This document shows positions 3,281 to 35,051 of a stretch of 38,522 nt of DNA, one piece after another. The position numbers and the translations under genes were made by a program. The DNA is taken from the NCBI GenBank assembly GCA_025356015.1, contig JANXYO010000133.1, positions 1-38,522 of the forward strand, written 5' to 3'. How positions within the stretch are numbered: the first letter of the stretch is position 1; the number at the start of each line of letters is the position of its first letter. The DNA comes from Spirochaetaceae bacterium (GTDB taxonomy: Bacteria > Spirochaetota > Spirochaetia > Treponematales > Rectinemataceae). The notes beneath the pieces are model-generated. The model saw only the letters and a program-made list of their open reading frames with translations. It was not told where the DNA came from and did no database searches.

Positions 3281-3340
3281 GCTGATCGCTCGCGATCAGA
3301 GTTTTTCCAACTGGCTGATCGCTCGCGATCAAAGTTTTTC
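3281..3340 (+). terminator. Duplicated intrinsic terminator of the chemoreceptor gene
   Basis: Two successive hairpins are present. Each has arms TGATCG and CGATCA around a CTCG loop (3283-3298 and 3316-3331) and is followed by a run of five T (3302-3306 and 3335-3339). Orientation of the T runs shows that they serve the plus-strand chemoreceptor gene ending at 3253. The second hairpin overlaps the stop codon of the convergent pseudouridine synthase gene. Confidence 0.75.
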
Positions 3341-3356
3341 CAACTGGCTGATCGCG
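3281..3356. repeat. 33-bp tandem duplication of a gene end plus terminator
   Basis: A 33-bp unit is repeated 2.3 times, beginning at 3281, 3314 and 3347 (partial), with one base difference between the full copies. The unit contains the last codons of the minus-strand pseudouridine synthase gene, its stop codon and the terminator hairpin. Read on the minus strand, the C-terminal residues SQLEKL-stop are encoded a second time downstream of the used stop. Confidence 0.9.
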
Positions 3357-4045
3357 GCCCTCATGTCCTTCGCCAGCGGTGCCTCGACCTTGAACGTCGC
3401 CCCGGTGGCGGGGTGGGGAAATTCCGCCGAGAGGGCGTGCAGCGCGGCGCGCGCGAGCAGCGGCCTCTCGTCGAGGAGATCACCCTTCCACCTTCGCTTG
3501 AGCTTGGATAGGAGGAGGGGATCGCGATCGCCGTAAAGGGGGTCGCAGAGGCAGGGATGCCCGAGGGAGGCGAGATGGACGCGCACTTGATGAGTGCGCC
3601 CGGTCTCGGGGCGCGCTTCGACGAGCGCATAGTCCTTGTAGCGCGCGATCACGGCGAAGGCCGTCTTCGAAGGCTTGCCATGGTGGGGCGTCGCGACCGT
3701 CCTGTGCAGCCTGTCGCCGTCGGGCATCAAGGGGAGATCGCAGACCGTCTCGTCCCAGTCAGGCGCGCCTCGGACCAGGGCGCGGTAGACCTTGGACACC
3801 GACCTCGTCTCAAAGGCCTCGCTCAAGGACTTGTGCGCCTCGGGCGACCTCGCGAAAATCAGCACCCCGCTCGTCTCCTTGTCGAGGCGATGCACGACGA
3901 AGAGCTTGCCCCAGGCGGCCTTGAGCTCGGTCACCGCGTCGGGGAGGTCCGGATCCCAGCGGTCGGGTATGGAGAGGATGCCGGCGCTCTTGTCGATCAC
4001 GAGGAGACTATCGTCGGAATATAGCACGGAAAGCGGACTGGCCAT
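3329..4045 (-). CDS. RluA-family pseudouridine synthase
   Basis: The protein has 238 residues and isomerises specific uridines in rRNA or tRNA to pseudouridine. The family signature HRLDKETSGVLIFA is present, with the catalytic aspartate at D55. The later conserved GRTHQVRVHLASLGHP motif and PLYGD are also present. There is no N-terminal S4 domain, and the length is close to that of RluA itself (about 220 residues) rather than RluC or RluD (over 300). The target site therefore cannot be inferred beyond the single-domain class. The start ATG at 4045 has no clear Shine-Dalgarno sequence. The gene is convergent with the chemoreceptor gene, and its stop lies within a tandem repeat. Confidence 0.93.
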   Translation of the reverse strand: MASPLSVLYSDDSLLVIDKSAGILSIPDRWDPDLPDAVTELKAAWGKLFVVHRLDKETSGVLIFARSPEAHKSLSEAFETRSVSKVYRALVRGAPDWDETVCDLPLMPDGDRLHRTVATPHHGKPSKTAFAVIARYKDYALVEARPETGRTHQVRVHLASLGHPCLCDPLYGDRDPLLLSKLKRRWKGDLLDERPLLARAALHALSAEFPHPATGATFKVEAPLAKDMRAAISQLEKL

Positions 4046-25368: not shown

Positions 25369-25970
25369 TGGACACAAAGGATGAACCCACCGCCATGAAG
25401 GCGGCTCGGGAAAGCTCCCTCGGCACAAGGAACATCAAGGGCCTCGCCCATCCCCTGCGAATACGGATCCTTGGGGCCCTGCGCATAGGCGGGCCATCCA
25501 CTGCCTCAAGCCTCGCCTCGAGGCTGGGAGAATCGAGCGGGGCCACGAGCTACCACCTTAGGCAGCTGGAGAAGTTCGGCTTCGTCATCGAGGAGCTGGA
25601 CCGGGGATCGAGGCGGGAGCGTTGGTGGCGCGCCGCCCAGCAGAGCACCCAGTTCGACGAGGCCGCCCTGGTGAGGGATCCAGAGACCAGGGCCTTCGGG
25701 AGCGAATTCCTCCGCCTGGTCGCGGGGGCTACCCTGGAGAGAGCCCTCTCCTGGATAGACTCCCTGCCCTCTTTCCCTGGGCAATGGGCCGAGGCGGGGA
25801 CGATGAGCGATTGGGGACTGCGCCTCGATCCCGCCCAGCTTCGTGAGCTCAAGGCCGAGATGGAGGCCCTGGTTGGCCGCTACCCGCGCTTTGATCCCGA
25901 GGAGGAAGGTAAGCCGGGAACGGCCTATGTGAGCGTCCAGCTCCAGCTCCTTCCGAGGCTGGAAGCATGA
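25368..25970 (+). CDS. ArsR-type winged-helix transcriptional regulator
   Basis: The 200-residue protein has an N-terminal winged-helix domain with GLAHPLRIRILGALRIGGPS, then LASRLGESSGATSYHLRQLE and a basic wing ending RGSRRERWWRA. The HP-x-R-I-x-IL start and SYHLRQL recognition helix are characteristic of ArsR-type regulators of the HTH_20 kind. The C-terminal half (about 110-200) has no metal-binding cysteines, so this is not a metal sensor of the classical type. It overlaps the MFS transporter gene by 4 bp (ATGA), so it probably represses its own operon until the transporter's substrate is present. TTTGCAA sites cover the promoter and touch the start. No proper ribosome binding site is seen for ATG 25368, so a leaderless transcript is possible. 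Confidence 0.87.
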   Translation: MDTKDEPTAMKAARESSLGTRNIKGLAHPLRIRILGALRIGGPSTASSLASRLGESSGATSYHLRQLEKFGFVIEELDRGSRRERWWRAAQQSTQFDEAALVRDPETRAFGSEFLRLVAGATLERALSWIDSLPSFPGQWAEAGTMSDWGLRLDPAQLRELKAEMEALVGRYPRFDPEEEGKPGTAYVSVQLQLLPRLEA

Positions 25971-27196
25971 GAGGCCAGCGGCTCGGCATCGTCGGCCTTC
26001 TGGCGGCCAATGGCATTTCCATGTCGGGCACCTCGATGTCCATGCTTGCCCTGCCCTGGTTTGTGCTCGCCACCACTGGCAGCGCGATGGACACGGGGCT
26101 CGTGGCCCTGGCGGAAATGCTCCCCTATGTCCTGGTCCAGGCCTTTGGCGGCCCCCTGGTGGACCGGCTCGGAGCGCGGCGCATGAGCATCGCGACTGAT
26201 GTCGCGGCGGCCCTGGCGATGGGAGCCGTGCCTGTTCTCCACGCCGCGGGCCTCCTCGGCCTCGCTCCCCTCTCCACAGTGGTGGCAGTGGCGGGAGCCT
26301 GCCGCGGGGCCGGGGACATTGCGAGGCGCGTCCTCCTCCCCCGGATCTGCCAGCCGGCTGGCCTCCCCCTCGACCGGGCCTCGGGCCTCTACGACGGCAT
26401 CAACCGCGTGGCCGCGCTGATAGGGGGTCCGCTCGGCGGACTCCTCATAGCCCTCAGCTCGGCGCCGATAGTGCTCGCCCTCGATGCCACGAGCTTCGCG
26501 GCCTCTGCCCTCGTCATTGCCATCTGCACGGCTGCCGAGGGCGGGAGCCAGGGAAGAAGCGAGGCCAAGGCTCCCTCCTACCTCGCCGATCTGAAGGAGG
26601 GCTTCTCCCGCCTGGGCAGGGACCGCCTCCTTGTCGGCATTGGCGCGATGATCATCGTCACGAACCTCCTCGACCAGGCCTTCGCCTCGGTTCTCATGCC
26701 ACTGTGGGTGAAAAGCGAGCTTGGCTCTCCCCTGGCCCTGGGCAGCATCTCGGCCTGCTTCGGCATCGGCGCCGTCGCCGGCAACGCCCTCCTGGCCTGG
26801 CTCGCTCCCCGGCTGCCTCGGCGCCTGCCCTTCGCCCTGAGCTTCCTCGTCTGCGGAGCGCCGAGGTTCCTTGTCATGGCCATCGCATCCACACTCGGCC
26901 CCGTGGCCATTGTCGCAATAGCCTCGGGCCTTGGTGCGGGGGGCATAAACCCCGTCCTCGGCGCTGTCGAATACGAGCGGGTGCCCAGGGCTCTCCAGGC
27001 CCGGGTCCTTGGCGCCCTGGGCTCCCTGGCATGGGCCGGCATTCCCTTCGGCGGCCTCGTCGGTGGCGCGCTCGCGGGGAGTCTCGGCCTGCGAACCGCC
27101 CTCGCGATCTGCGGCCTCGCCTATCTGCTGGCGACCCTGGCCCCCTTCGTCTTCCCCGTCTGGCGGGAGATGGAGCGGGGGCGGTCCGCGGCTTGA
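25967..27196 (+). CDS. MFS transporter, EntS-like exporter family
   Basis: The 409-residue protein has about 12 hydrophobic helices in two halves around a central charged loop (about residues 190-215). The helix 2-3 loop shows GGPLVDRLGARRMSIATD, the MFS signature. The start fits members that resemble the enterobactin exporter EntS and macrolide exporters, with LPWFVLATTGSAMDTGLVAL in helix 1-2. It is probably a drug or metabolite exporter, but substrate cannot be inferred. It is the second gene of an operon with the ArsR-type regulator (4-bp overlap), the common arrangement for an exporter and its local repressor. The stop codon lies inside a TTGACA box that may serve the next gene. Confidence 0.9.
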   Translation: MRGQRLGIVGLLAANGISMSGTSMSMLALPWFVLATTGSAMDTGLVALAEMLPYVLVQAFGGPLVDRLGARRMSIATDVAAALAMGAVPVLHAAGLLGLAPLSTVVAVAGACRGAGDIARRVLLPRICQPAGLPLDRASGLYDGINRVAALIGGPLGGLLIALSSAPIVLALDATSFAASALVIAICTAAEGGSQGRSEAKAPSYLADLKEGFSRLGRDRLLVGIGAMIIVTNLLDQAFASVLMPLWVKSELGSPLALGSISACFGIGAVAGNALLAWLAPRLPRRLPFALSFLVCGAPRFLVMAIASTLGPVAIVAIASGLGAGGINPVLGAVEYERVPRALQARVLGALGSLAWAGIPFGGLVGGALAGSLGLRTALAICGLAYLLATLAPFVFPVWREMERGRSAA

Positions 27197-29027: not shown

Positions 29028-29059
29028 GAGCTTCGGGGCGCCCTGGCGCCCTCAAAGCT
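29028..29059. terminator. Hairpin between convergent genes, possible bidirectional terminator
   Basis: GGGCGCC (29036-29042) pairs with GGCGCCC (29045-29051), and outer AGCTT/AAGCT extends the stem. It occupies the 38 bp between a plus-strand gene ending at 29020 and a minus-strand gene ending at 29058. There is no T run, so efficiency is uncertain. Confidence 0.45.
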
Positions 29060-31427
29060 AGATCCCCGAGCCCAGGTAATACAGGCCGAGGAGGGCGACG
29101 ATCATGGACGCGGCCTCGTCAAGGCCCTGGTCCGGGTCCGTGGAGGCCGCGCGCTCGGCGGCCGAGGCGGCGATCCAGCACCAGGCGCCGAGACGCATGT
29201 CTGCCCGCCCAGCGGCCTCGGGGAAGTCGGGCTCGTCGACGAGGCCGCCGAAGAGCCTGCTCATGGCAAGATGGTGGATGCGGAGGCACGCCTCCAGGGC
29301 CTCGCCGCCGCGATCGGCCTCGAGGGCCAGGGCGCACTCATCGAAGAGGGGACTGATGTCGGCGCCCTCGGCGCGCAGAAGTGGCTCGAGGCGAAGCCTG
29401 AACACGGCGAAAAGCGCGCGGCAGCGCTCCTGCCTCGAATAGAGCTCGCCGGTGATGAAGCGGTAGAACTCCCCCGCCTGGCCGAGGATGTTGCCGAGGG
29501 CGATGGCGTACTGCCGTTTGAGGGCCGCGTTGCGCGACTGGGCCATGCGCGGGAAGAGCTCCTGCACGGCCTCGAGCACCTCCATGGGAGCGTCGGCTTC
29601 CTCGGCGCCGGCGGCCCTCGTCACGGCCTCGGCGAGCGTCGCCGCGACCGAGTGCTCCTTCTCGCCCGAGAGGGTGGCGGCGAGGGCGGAGCGCGCCTCC
29701 TCGCCCCCGATGATCCCCAGGGCCTCGGCGCAGGCCAACCTGAGCTCGGGCGAGCCCACGGCGAGGCAGCGCACCAGGGATGACACGGCCCGCTCGTCGC
29801 CTATGCTGCCCAACGCTCGCGCGGCATCTATCCTTATGGGACTCGAGGGGTCGGCGAGCCGGGTCGAGAGCTCGGTGGTGGCCTCGCGCGAGCCGATCCT
29901 CCCAAGGGCCCGGGCGGCCTCGCGCCTGACCTCTGCGGCGGGGTCGTCCAGGCGCGCCACGACCTCGCGCAGCACGAGTTCGCCGTCCTCCCTGTCAATG
30001 CGCCGAAGCGCCCGCGCGACGCGGGGATCGCTTGAGTCCCGCGAGAGGGCTCCGAGCGAGGCGAAGCTCCTGAACACGCCCGCCGTGGCGAACTGCGAGA
30101 CAAGGTAGGCGACCGGCCTCTCCTTGCCCTCCCTCACCCTCCTCAGGGCCAGGGCCGCCAGAGCGAGGAGGATCAGGCTGGCCAGCTGGCCCACATGGAA
30201 TCCGCCCAACTCCATGGCCCCCACGCGGAAGCGCAGGCCGGTCAGGGCGGCCGCGAGAAAGCCTCCGGCGATGGGTCCCAGGGCCGAGACCATGCCCAGG
30301 ATCGTGTTGTACCAGCTTATGTACACGACGCGGCGCTCCGGCGGGGCGAGGGTAAGCATGAGCTGGTTCGAGCCCTCCCAGAAGGCGGGGCCGAAGAAGC
30401 CGGCCGCCAGGGACAGAAGGGGGAGGAGGTAGGGGTAGTCGCGGGGCGTCAGGAAGACATAACCCAGGGTCGAGAACCCGACCAGGAAGCCCATGAGCAC
30501 GGCGGGCTTGCGGCCGTAGCGGTCCATGACAAAGCCCCACAGGGGGGCTATCGCTACCCAGGTGAGCTGGGACATCAGGGTCATGATGCCCAACCACACG
30601 TTGGGCGCTCCCACGGCATCTTTGGAGGTTACAAAGGGGGCCTGGAAGGGTCCGGCCAGGTTGAGGGCCAGGACGGCCAGGCCCATCGAAAACGAGAAGC
30701 GTATGAAGTTGCGGTCGCCCAGGGGGGCGGCGAAGTCGGCTGCGGTGAACCTGGGGCGCGCGACGCGTGGAGGCTCGGGGATCGCCAGGTGGAGCATGAT
30801 GTCGACGACCCCTCCGACCGCGCCGACCCCGAAGATCGCCACATAGGCCCAGGACCTTGATTCGTCGCCGAACAGGTCAAGGAGGACAGAGGCGAGGAAG
30901 AACCAGGCCACGGTCGCCCCCTGGAACACGGCCGAACGCCTCAGGAAAAAGCTCCCCCTGGTCTCGGCGGGAACGAGGTCGGCCATCCAGGACATCCAGC
31001 CCGAGGAGCTCAGGTTCATCAGGGCCCAAGAAGCTATCATCGCTGCCGAGACCAGAAGGGCTGCCGGGGCCTGCCCCGCCCCCGTGGCGAAGATCGCGGC
31101 CGAAGCAGCCACAGCGAGGCCAGCGAGGCGGTGGACTAGGTGTGAAGCCATCCAGAATGCCTTGCGCCTGGGAAGGTAGGAGTAGGCGAGAATCGAGAGA
31201 AGCTGGAGCACACCCGAGAGCTGCATGAGACCCAGGAGGGTACCCAGCAGCCTGGGCGAGACACCCAGGTGGTTGAGCATGTAGACGTTGAAGATGGGCT
31301 GGTTGTTGCAGACCGTCAGGAACAGGGCGCCCGAGCCCCCGGCCGCGACGGAATAGTTCATGGCGCGTGACAGCTGGCGCGGACTCAAAGGCTCCACTGC
31401 GGGGCCATTCTTTTCTGGACTCGGCAC
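29058..31427 (-). CDS. MFS transporter fused to a C-terminal HEAT-repeat domain
   Basis: From GTG 31427 the product is 789 residues. Residues about 15-435 are an MFS-type membrane domain with about 12 helices (starting LSPRQLSRAMNYSVAAGGSG, and GFVMDRYGRKPAVLMGFLVG in the second half). Residues about 440-789 are soluble and contain PBS-lyase/HEAT-like repeats (VARLDDPAAEVRREAARALG, RLADPSSPIRIDAARALGSI, CLAVGSPELRLACAEALGII). A helical tail follows. HEAT repeats are protein-binding scaffolds, so the transporter may be gated by or scaffold a partner. The start is unclear: ATG 31361 is a shorter option. The open frame continues upstream past 31571 behind a GGGAGG box, without a normal start codon. 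The M28 peptidase gene ends 143 bp upstream on the same strand. Confidence 0.82.
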   Translation of the reverse strand: MPSPEKNGPAVEPLSPRQLSRAMNYSVAAGGSGALFLTVCNNQPIFNVYMLNHLGVSPRLLGTLLGLMQLSGVLQLLSILAYSYLPRRKAFWMASHLVHRLAGLAVAASAAIFATGAGQAPAALLVSAAMIASWALMNLSSSGWMSWMADLVPAETRGSFFLRRSAVFQGATVAWFFLASVLLDLFGDESRSWAYVAIFGVGAVGGVVDIMLHLAIPEPPRVARPRFTAADFAAPLGDRNFIRFSFSMGLAVLALNLAGPFQAPFVTSKDAVGAPNVWLGIMTLMSQLTWVAIAPLWGFVMDRYGRKPAVLMGFLVGFSTLGYVFLTPRDYPYLLPLLSLAAGFFGPAFWEGSNQLMLTLAPPERRVVYISWYNTILGMVSALGPIAGGFLAAALTGLRFRVGAMELGGFHVGQLASLILLALAALALRRVREGKERPVAYLVSQFATAGVFRSFASLGALSRDSSDPRVARALRRIDREDGELVLREVVARLDDPAAEVRREAARALGRIGSREATTELSTRLADPSSPIRIDAARALGSIGDERAVSSLVRCLAVGSPELRLACAEALGIIGGEEARSALAATLSGEKEHSVAATLAEAVTRAAGAEEADAPMEVLEAVQELFPRMAQSRNAALKRQYAIALGNILGQAGEFYRFITGELYSRQERCRALFAVFRLRLEPLLRAEGADISPLFDECALALEADRGGEALEACLRIHHLAMSRLFGGLVDEPDFPEAAGRADMRLGAWCWIAASAAERAASTDPDQGLDEAASMIVALLGLYYLGSGI

Positions 31428-33419: not shown

Positions 33420-35051
33420 GTGACAAAACTCACGAACATCGGCCTGGCCTATGCCGACCGCATTCTCTTTGCCGACGGCGAACTCCTCATCAGGAATGGC
33501 GACAGGATCGGCCTGGTGGGCCCGAACGGCGCTGGCAAGACCTCGCTCTTCCGGATCATCGCGGGGATCGAGAGGCCCGACCAGGGCACGATAAGCATGG
33601 ATGGTGGCACCGTCATCGGCTATTTCTCCCAGGACGTGGGCGAGATGTCGGGCAGGACCGTGCTCGAGGAGGTGCTCGCTGGCGCCGGCCGGGTCTACGA
33701 GATCGGCCTCGAAATCGCCGAACTCGAGCACCGCATGTCTGACCCTCAATCGCCGGGTCTGAGCGATGCCGAGATGACGGCCTACGGAGAGCTCCAGAAC
33801 GATTTCATGCACCACGGCGGCTACGAGCTCGAGACGAAGGCCGAGGCCATCCTTTCCGGCCTCGGCATCGGCAAGGAACGCCAGGGCGAGAGGGTCGAGA
33901 GCTTCTCGGGCGGATGGAAGATGCGGATCGCCCTCGCCCGCATCCTCCTCCTCGAGCCCCAGCTCCTGTTGATGGACGAGCCCACCAACCACCTGGACCT
34001 CGAGTCGATCATCTGGCTCGAGTCCTGGCTCGGCTCCTTCAAGGGCGACCTGGTGATGACGAGCCACGACAGGGAATTCATGACCCGGGTCTGCCGCACG
34101 ACAGTCGAGGTGGCCTCGGGGGCAATCACCACCTACTCGGGCGACTACGACTTCTACGAGCGCGAGCGCGCGGTCCGCAGGGAACAGCTCGTGGCCTCGC
34201 AAAAGCGTCAGGAGGCCATGCTCGCGAAGGAAGAGGAGTTCATCGCGCGCTTCGCCGCCCGCGCCTCCCACGCGGCTCAGGTCCAGTCGCGCGTGAAGAC
34301 CATCGACAAGATAGAGCGCATCGTCGTTCCAGCCGACCCCAAGTCCATAAAGCTGCGCTTCGAAAGCGCACCGAGGGGACCCGACATCGTCGTTGCGATG
34401 GAAGGCCTGGGCAAGTCCTGGCCCCTCCCCGGCGGCGACACGCGCTCGGTGTTCTCAGGAATCACGGGCACGGTAAACCGGGGAGACAAGATCGCCCTCA
34501 CCGGGATCAACGGCGCAGGCAAGTCCACCCTGCTCAAGGTGATAACGGGCCAGACCGAGGCGAGCGAGGGTAGCTCGACCCTCGGCACGAGCACGAAGCT
34601 CGGCTATTTCAGCCAGTACTCGAGCGACATCCTCATTCCCTCGCGCACGATCTTCGAGGAGGTCTCGGAGCGCCTCCCCAAGGCCAGCGAAGGCCAGATC
34701 AAGAACATCCTCGGTGCCTTCCAGTTCTCGGGCGACGATTCGGACAAGCGCGTGGGCGTCCTCTCGGGCGGAGAGAAGAGCCGGGTGATGCTCGCCCTCA
34801 TCCTCTCCCAGAGCGTCAATTTCCTTGTCCTCGACGAGCCGACCAACCACCTCGACATCGCGAGTCGCGAGGTCCTGCTCGAGGCCCTGAAGGACTTCGA
34901 GGGCACGATCATGCTCGTGAGCCACGACCGCTATTTCCTCAGGCAGCTGGCCAACCGGGTCTTCGAGATAGACAAAGGCTCGCTCGCGACTTATGAGGGC
35001 GACTATCAATACTACCTTGAGAAATCGGAGAGGATGAGGGCGGGGAGATAG
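33420..35051 (+). CDS. ABC-F family ATPase
   Basis: A 543-residue soluble protein with two complete ABC domains and no membrane segment. It has Walker A GPNGAGKTS and GINGAGKST, signatures FSGGWKMRIALARI and LSGGEKSRVMLALI, and Walker B LLLMDEPTNHLD and FLVLDEPTNHLD. The domains are joined by a charged helical linker at about residues 240-320. These features define ABC-F proteins, which bind the ribosome E site and influence peptidyl-transfer or relieve stalled or antibiotic-bound ribosomes. No long C-terminal coiled coil of the Uup type is present. Translation probably starts at GTG 33420, with GGAG a few bases upstream. The target (housekeeping translation factor or antibiotic protection) cannot be told from the sequence. 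Confidence 0.94.
   Translation: MTKLTNIGLAYADRILFADGELLIRNGDRIGLVGPNGAGKTSLFRIIAGIERPDQGTISMDGGTVIGYFSQDVGEMSGRTVLEEVLAGAGRVYEIGLEIAELEHRMSDPQSPGLSDAEMTAYGELQNDFMHHGGYELETKAEAILSGLGIGKERQGERVESFSGGWKMRIALARILLLEPQLLLMDEPTNHLDLESIIWLESWLGSFKGDLVMTSHDREFMTRVCRTTVEVASGAITTYSGDYDFYERERAVRREQLVASQKRQEAMLAKEEEFIARFAARASHAAQVQSRVKTIDKIERIVVPADPKSIKLRFESAPRGPDIVVAMEGLGKSWPLPGGDTRSVFSGITGTVNRGDKIALTGINGAGKSTLLKVITGQTEASEGSSTLGTSTKLGYFSQYSSDILIPSRTIFEEVSERLPKASEGQIKNILGAFQFSGDDSDKRVGVLSGGEKSRVMLALILSQSVNFLVLDEPTNHLDIASREVLLEALKDFEGTIMLVSHDRYFLRQLANRVFEIDKGSLATYEGDYQYYLEKSERMRAGR

Follow-up and report, generated by a model that had tools for sequence, protein, structure and literature searches.

A HEAT-tailed MFS carrier of spirochaetes with an unnamed helical end domain that also occurs as a free-standing protein

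The window, the 38,522-nucleotide stretch of Spirochaetaceae DNA that we analysed in full (assembly GCA_025356015.1, contig JANXYO010000133.1), encodes a fused protein in which an MFS transporter domain is followed by HEAT repeats and an all-helical end domain. The fused protein is a real, conserved and partly new HEAT-tailed carrier; its end domain is undescribed and exists free-standing in nearly all relatives. With moderate confidence, we propose that it is a spirochaete MFS secondary carrier whose HEAT repeats form a cytosolic platform and whose end domain is a new one that serves docking or regulation. A second transporter family is thereby added to the carriers known with HEAT tails, and an unnamed protein domain comes to light that almost all genomes of one spirochaete order encode.

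Table 1 Coordinates of the fused gene, its parts and the upstream peptidase gene (positions are those of the window; residues are those of the fused protein)
Feature	Position	Strand	Details and basis
MFS-HEAT-end-domain gene	29058..31427	-	789 aa; GTG start 31427, stop 29058; homologues align over full length
MFS transporter domain, residues 15-437	30117..31385	-	PF07690; model and VIA-align to solved MFS chains
C-half loop GFVMDRYGRKP, residues 298-308, MFS motif A-like	30504..30536	-	Conservation, 27 intact sequences
Linker, residues 438-482	29982..30116	-	Model confidence low at 458-484
HEAT repeats, residues 483-607, about four	29607..29981	-	PF13646/PF03130/PF02985
End domain, residues 614-789, all-helical, unnamed	29061..29588	-	Homologues and predicted model
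M28-type peptidase gene, 400 aa	31571..32773	-	PF04389; 143 bases upstream of fused gene, same strand

Architecture and conservation of the fused carrier

A sequence-only reading of this DNA had described an MFS domain continuing in frame into HEAT repeats, and the Pfam search of the tail that it suggested agrees. Within the single open frame, PF07690 (MFS_1) scored 63.2 bits against a cut-off of 33.4 and HEAT_2 99.7 bits against a cut-off of 27.7; HEAT_PBS (37.7 bits) and HEAT (35.9 bits) also exceeded their cut-offs, the HEAT matches together falling at residues ~483-607. The 350 residues that the reading had assigned to a HEAT tail are right for the length of the tail, but only ~125 of them are HEAT repeats; the last ~176 residues, helical as stated, form a separate domain whose distinctness had been undersold. 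Pfam gave no match from about residue 610 to the C-terminus, and every NCBIfam match on the protein was below its cut-off. In a search of the PDB, the HEAT part resembled designed alphaRep chains and a phycocyanobilin lyase subunit. The start of the frame is consistent with that of a relative (L022), whose first start codon aligns with the start residue of the window protein.

The same reading had allowed that the fusion could be an assembly or annotation artefact, in which case homologues would be split at about residue 440. We collected 30 fused loci (the window and 29 others), 21 of them in the window's order, a lower bound for that order, and nine from further orders of its class. An intact single frame spans 27 of the 30, and none of the 30 is split at ~440. 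Two are frameshifted, both inside the transporter part (G009 at ~217-237 and G664 at ~382-389), and one, in G266, is truncated where its contig ends. The G664 gene (L113:6929-9267) is present as two overlapping frames broken near residue 385, which may reflect a sequencing error, a pseudogene or frameshifting. With 27 intact frames, and with breaks elsewhere than at ~440, a split-gene artefact is ruled out and the fusion is genuine. The three-part architecture was found in five families of one order and in four further families of the class; a plasmid search yielded one distant MFS match only.

Conservation was mapped over the 27 intact fused sequences, leaving out the frameshifted L091 and L113 and the contig-cut L083. 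The mean frequency of the commonest residue was 0.62 in the MFS part, 0.59 in the HEAT part and 0.42 in the end domain, and the 26 other sequences are 36-85%, 37-80% and 22-70% identical to the window protein over these three parts, respectively. Fifty positions of the MFS part are invariant (Q43, K89, R100, D184, D209, D302, K307, R366 and others), charged ones among them, and the fifty include G298, M301, D302, G305 and K307 of the loop GFVMDRYGRKP. This loop resembles MFS motif A, a motif of the loop between helices 8 and 9. That the MFS positions are so strongly kept makes it likely that this part is a working carrier of a solute.

AlphaFold modelling of the full chain, also suggested by the earlier reading, built the chain as a bundle of membrane helices, followed by HEAT hairpins (~483-605) and, from residue 614, another helical domain (mean pLDDT 79, pTM 0.56; alignment of nine sequences). 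Because the pTM is modest and confidence between the MFS and HEAT parts is low, the predicted relative placement of the three parts is to be read with low confidence. The bundle itself fits solved MFS transporters: VIA-align superposed model residues 13-436 on them with Z up to 32.4, the value obtained for residues 17-435 on SotB (6kkl; rmsd 3.1, 366 aligned).

Spread, fold and descent of the end domain

Residues ~615-787 match stand-alone proteins of ~190-200 aa. Of the 390 genomes of the order, 355 carry the end domain according to an 18-row profile, in most cases as a separate protein of ~190 aa, and so do 188 of the 195 with at least 90% completeness and at most 5% contamination; the 1.1-Mb single-contig genome G039 is without it. 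Among 392 genomes sampled across the phylum, 118 had a match; of the nine matches outside the order, eight are fused genes whose open frames span ~770-820 aa, and one is a fusion with a frameshift. A second end-domain match is present in 19 of the 21 fused genomes collected in the order, and it was a free copy wherever inspected; the other two, G128 (93% complete) and G089 (72% complete), have one match each. In the window's genome, the stand-alone protein is encoded at C35:14061-14636 on the minus strand.

The end domain modelled alone (residues 600-789, 52 sequences) is all helix and predicted with high confidence (pLDDT 92.5, pTM 0.87). No Pfam or NCBIfam family covers it in the 18 members scanned, for which family matches were weak and limited to one member each, the best being HEAT_2 at 7e-5; PF00027, the cyclic-nucleotide domain, is absent both from these members and from the Pfam matches of the whole protein. 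Foldseek found no match in the PDB at E 0.001 (best 0.19) and none among viral models (best 0.39), and a PDB profile search gave nothing below E 0.57. The best VIA-align superposition reached Z 5.4 (rmsd 2.4, 73 aligned), with HEAT/ARM chains among the top rows of weak partial overlaps. An extra stretch of HEAT repeats was also considered; profile comparison of the end domain with the HEAT part (probability 1.8%, over the first hairpin only) does not support it. On these comparisons with the PDB and viral models, the predicted structure may be a wholly new fold, or a known one.

The history of the free copy was traced in an IQ-TREE phylogeny of 67 domain copies over 201 columns, drawn from fetched loci that are a subset of the 355 genomes and rooted on fused genes of the same class from other orders (eight rows given as outgroup). 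The 37 stand-alone copies form one clade with support 100/100. This clade is nested with the fused genes of families f1 and f2, at support 92/77, which was not starred, and the fused genes of families f3, f4 and f5 form another clade; the ninth fused row of the class, L113, groups with the eight outgroup rows. Because the stand-alone copies are a single clade and each of the nine matches from outside the order is fused, the free protein probably arose once in the order, through duplication of the transporter's tail. On the simplest reading of these sequences, the class has long had the fused carrier. The root depends on the choice of outgroup, and an alternative root may lie between the fused and free forms.

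A more far-reaching reading, which we regard as a long shot, is that the end domain is a new spirochaete regulatory family that began as the tail of an MFS-HEAT carrier, was freed once in the ancestor of the order and would now act in trans on MFS-HEAT carriers, on the present one and perhaps on a second such family too. The analogy would be with PII proteins on ammonium channels, the end domain being a domain of its own.

The free copy has neighbours of its own. Among 19 sampled loci, it is divergent from a DUF4954/DUF6819 gene in 12, near an EF-G-like gene in seven and beside a proA-like gene in four (family f3); three of the DUF4954 genes, two of the EF-G genes and one proA gene were named by profile, and the rest by blast clustering. 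The DUF4954/DUF6819 divergence holds in 12 of 12 loci of families f1 and f4 and in none of the seven of f3 and f5, and in the window's genome the free copy lies divergent from a DUF4954 gene at C35:14885-16213 (plus strand). The DUF4954/DUF6819 neighbour, present for example at L029, L033 and L037, is left-handed beta-helix-like.

Gene neighbourhoods and candidate roles

The sequence-only reading had placed the fused gene after an M28 peptidase gene and offered peptide handling as a theme. The peptidase gene is real and on the same strand (Table 1). A peptide or amino-acid carrier working with it would suit this immediate adjacency and the lack of a minus-strand terminator-like site between the two genes. 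However, the adjacency is not conserved: the survey for co-occurrence found no M28 homologue at any of the 29 other fused loci (flanks of 0 to 8.9 kb per side searched), including the two nearest relatives (80% and 76% identical). Peptide-transporter families likewise gave no match on the window protein, PF00854, the PTR2/POT peptide transporter profile, being absent at E up to 0.01. We judge a peptide or amino-acid carrier of this kind very improbable, and with M28 absent from the searched flanks of the other fused loci the peptide theme is rejected.

Two further genes flank this region of the window. A second MFS gene lies ~1.9 kb from the fused gene (25967-27196, plus strand); its nearest NCBIfam models, 2A0121 and Tap efflux, match below their cut-offs. 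On the other side, at 33420-35051 (plus strand), an ABC-F protein exceeds the NCBIfam cut-off of a ribosomal protection-like family.

Across the loci, the neighbours of the fused gene differ by clade and include a pyrimidine operon, pyruvate kinase, a Reg_prop-GGDEF protein, a UvrD helicase, a CDP-alcohol transferase and a NagA-like gene. In the window's family, four fused loci (L021-L024) have the NagA-like amidohydrolase gene in their vicinity; as a partner it was set aside, the gene being on the other strand or several kb off, and that of L022, the one scanned, being below the NagA cut-off.

The pyrimidine operon suggests a transporter of that pathway, for instance of nucleobases, nucleosides, orotate or dihydroorotate, with a tail that would sense pyrimidine or PRPP status. 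In six of the 30 loci (L039, L040, L073, L074, L075 and L077), which span three genera in two families, the next gene on the strand of pyrE is the fused gene, and in L039, L040, L073 and L075 the order pyrB-pyrI-pyrC-pyrF-pyrK-pyrD-pyrE-fused gene runs on one strand. The L074 contig starts inside pyrD and retains the pyrE-fused gene pair, the only part of this order found in L077. Gene names rest on profiles for L039, whose PyrE and PyrC exceed the cut-offs of TIGR01367 and TIGR00857, and for pyrE of L077, and on tblastn for the other loci. Against such a role, four of the six loci belong to one genus, and pyrE is missing from the directly upstream position in 23 of the 30 loci, with L083 undecidable as its contig ends inside the gene. 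In L079 and L082 pyrE lies 2-4 kb upstream and does not adjoin the fused gene; the searched flanks of 21 of the 30 loci, those of the window and of the nine loci from other orders included, gave no pyrE match, and the sole pyrE-like match in the window's genome (30% identity) is on another contig. In the fold search, the nucleoside carriers YegT and NupG stand among many near-tied MFS chains. Our reading is that one clade ties the fused gene to pyrimidine synthesis, and that a pyrimidine-pathway transporter is unlikely. We also observed that the pseudouridine synthase following the fused gene in L039, L040 and L073-L075 has a 51% identical homologue in the window at 3329-4045 (minus strand), ~25 kb from the fused gene on the same contig.

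Signalling genes occur among the neighbours as well: L109 and L110 have one for a GGDEF protein, and L106 has one for a CheA-like kinase. Together with the large conserved tail and the near-universal free copy in the order, they are what would be expected of a transceptor, in which the MFS part would sense instead of carrying, with the HEAT and end domains passing its signal on. These neighbours are not conserved among the loci, however, and the transport-type residues, the motif A-like loop included, are kept in all 27 intact sequences, so that we consider a transceptor rather improbable.

We return to the preferred reading of a carrier with a docking or regulatory tail. The C-terminus of MFS proteins is normally cytosolic, and a 19-residue Kyte-Doolittle scan detected no membrane-like stretch after residue 440 (maximum 1.41). 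Given these two points and the protein binding for which HEAT repeats are known (available text of PMC5381601), we infer that the most likely cytosolic C-terminus bears a short HEAT platform and the helical end domain, which would dock the carrier to a cytosolic partner or let it be switched by one. The free copy could use the same binding surface in trans, sharing the partner or competing for it. The spread of the end domain through the order and its high-confidence predicted model speak for this reading. Counting against it are the clade-dependent neighbours of the fused gene and the low conservation of the end domain, the least conserved of the three parts, which would be odd for a tight docking surface. 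The regulated or complex-forming transporter that the sequence-only reading had suggested is a fair inference, and one strengthened by the free-standing copy.

Comparison with known HEAT-tailed and tail-controlled carriers

Soluble repeat scaffolds on MFS carriers had been called uncommon, a statement to be qualified: the same order has a second MFS-HEAT family, distantly related and ~745-775 aa long (for example L072:3421-5715 and L011:331-2571, both on the plus strand), present even in the 1.1-Mb single-contig genome G039. Its members carry MFS_1 and HEAT_2 in one chain, match the profile of the fused family over positions ~150-680 and are ~22-24% identical to the window protein, and they have no end domain by the A2 profile. 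In L072, too, the MFS-HEAT gene has an ABC-F homologue ~1.2 kb away. Among open-licence papers, we found no literature on MFS-HEAT proteins.

Control of an MFS carrier by its own cytosolic C-terminus has been described for ProP (PMC10710835, in the text available), to which the fused protein may be likened. The ProP tail is an extended dimerising segment, in contrast to the HEAT and end domains of the window protein, and that review in its available text does not mention HEAT.

The closest described systems are the NTT-HEAT and NTT-HEAT-cNBD fusions, which, as far as the available text of PMC5381601 describes them, share the plan of the fused protein: HEAT repeats (PF13646, PF02985) behind a membrane carrier, with a further C-terminal domain in some of them. 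According to the same text, NTT-HEAT proteins are broadly distributed in bacteria, the fusion is of single origin, the C-terminal end is evolutionarily labile, the function of the tail is unknown, and NTTs are not reported from Spirochaetes. The two systems differ in the carrier, which is of the NTT family (PF03219) in those fusions, a profile absent from the window protein at E up to 0.01. They differ also in the third domain, a cyclic-nucleotide domain in NTT-HEAT-cNBD and, in the window protein, a helical domain that is unnamed and also found as a free copy. That free copy offers a concrete handle on what HEAT-tailed carriers bind, a question shared with the NTT-HEAT proteins.
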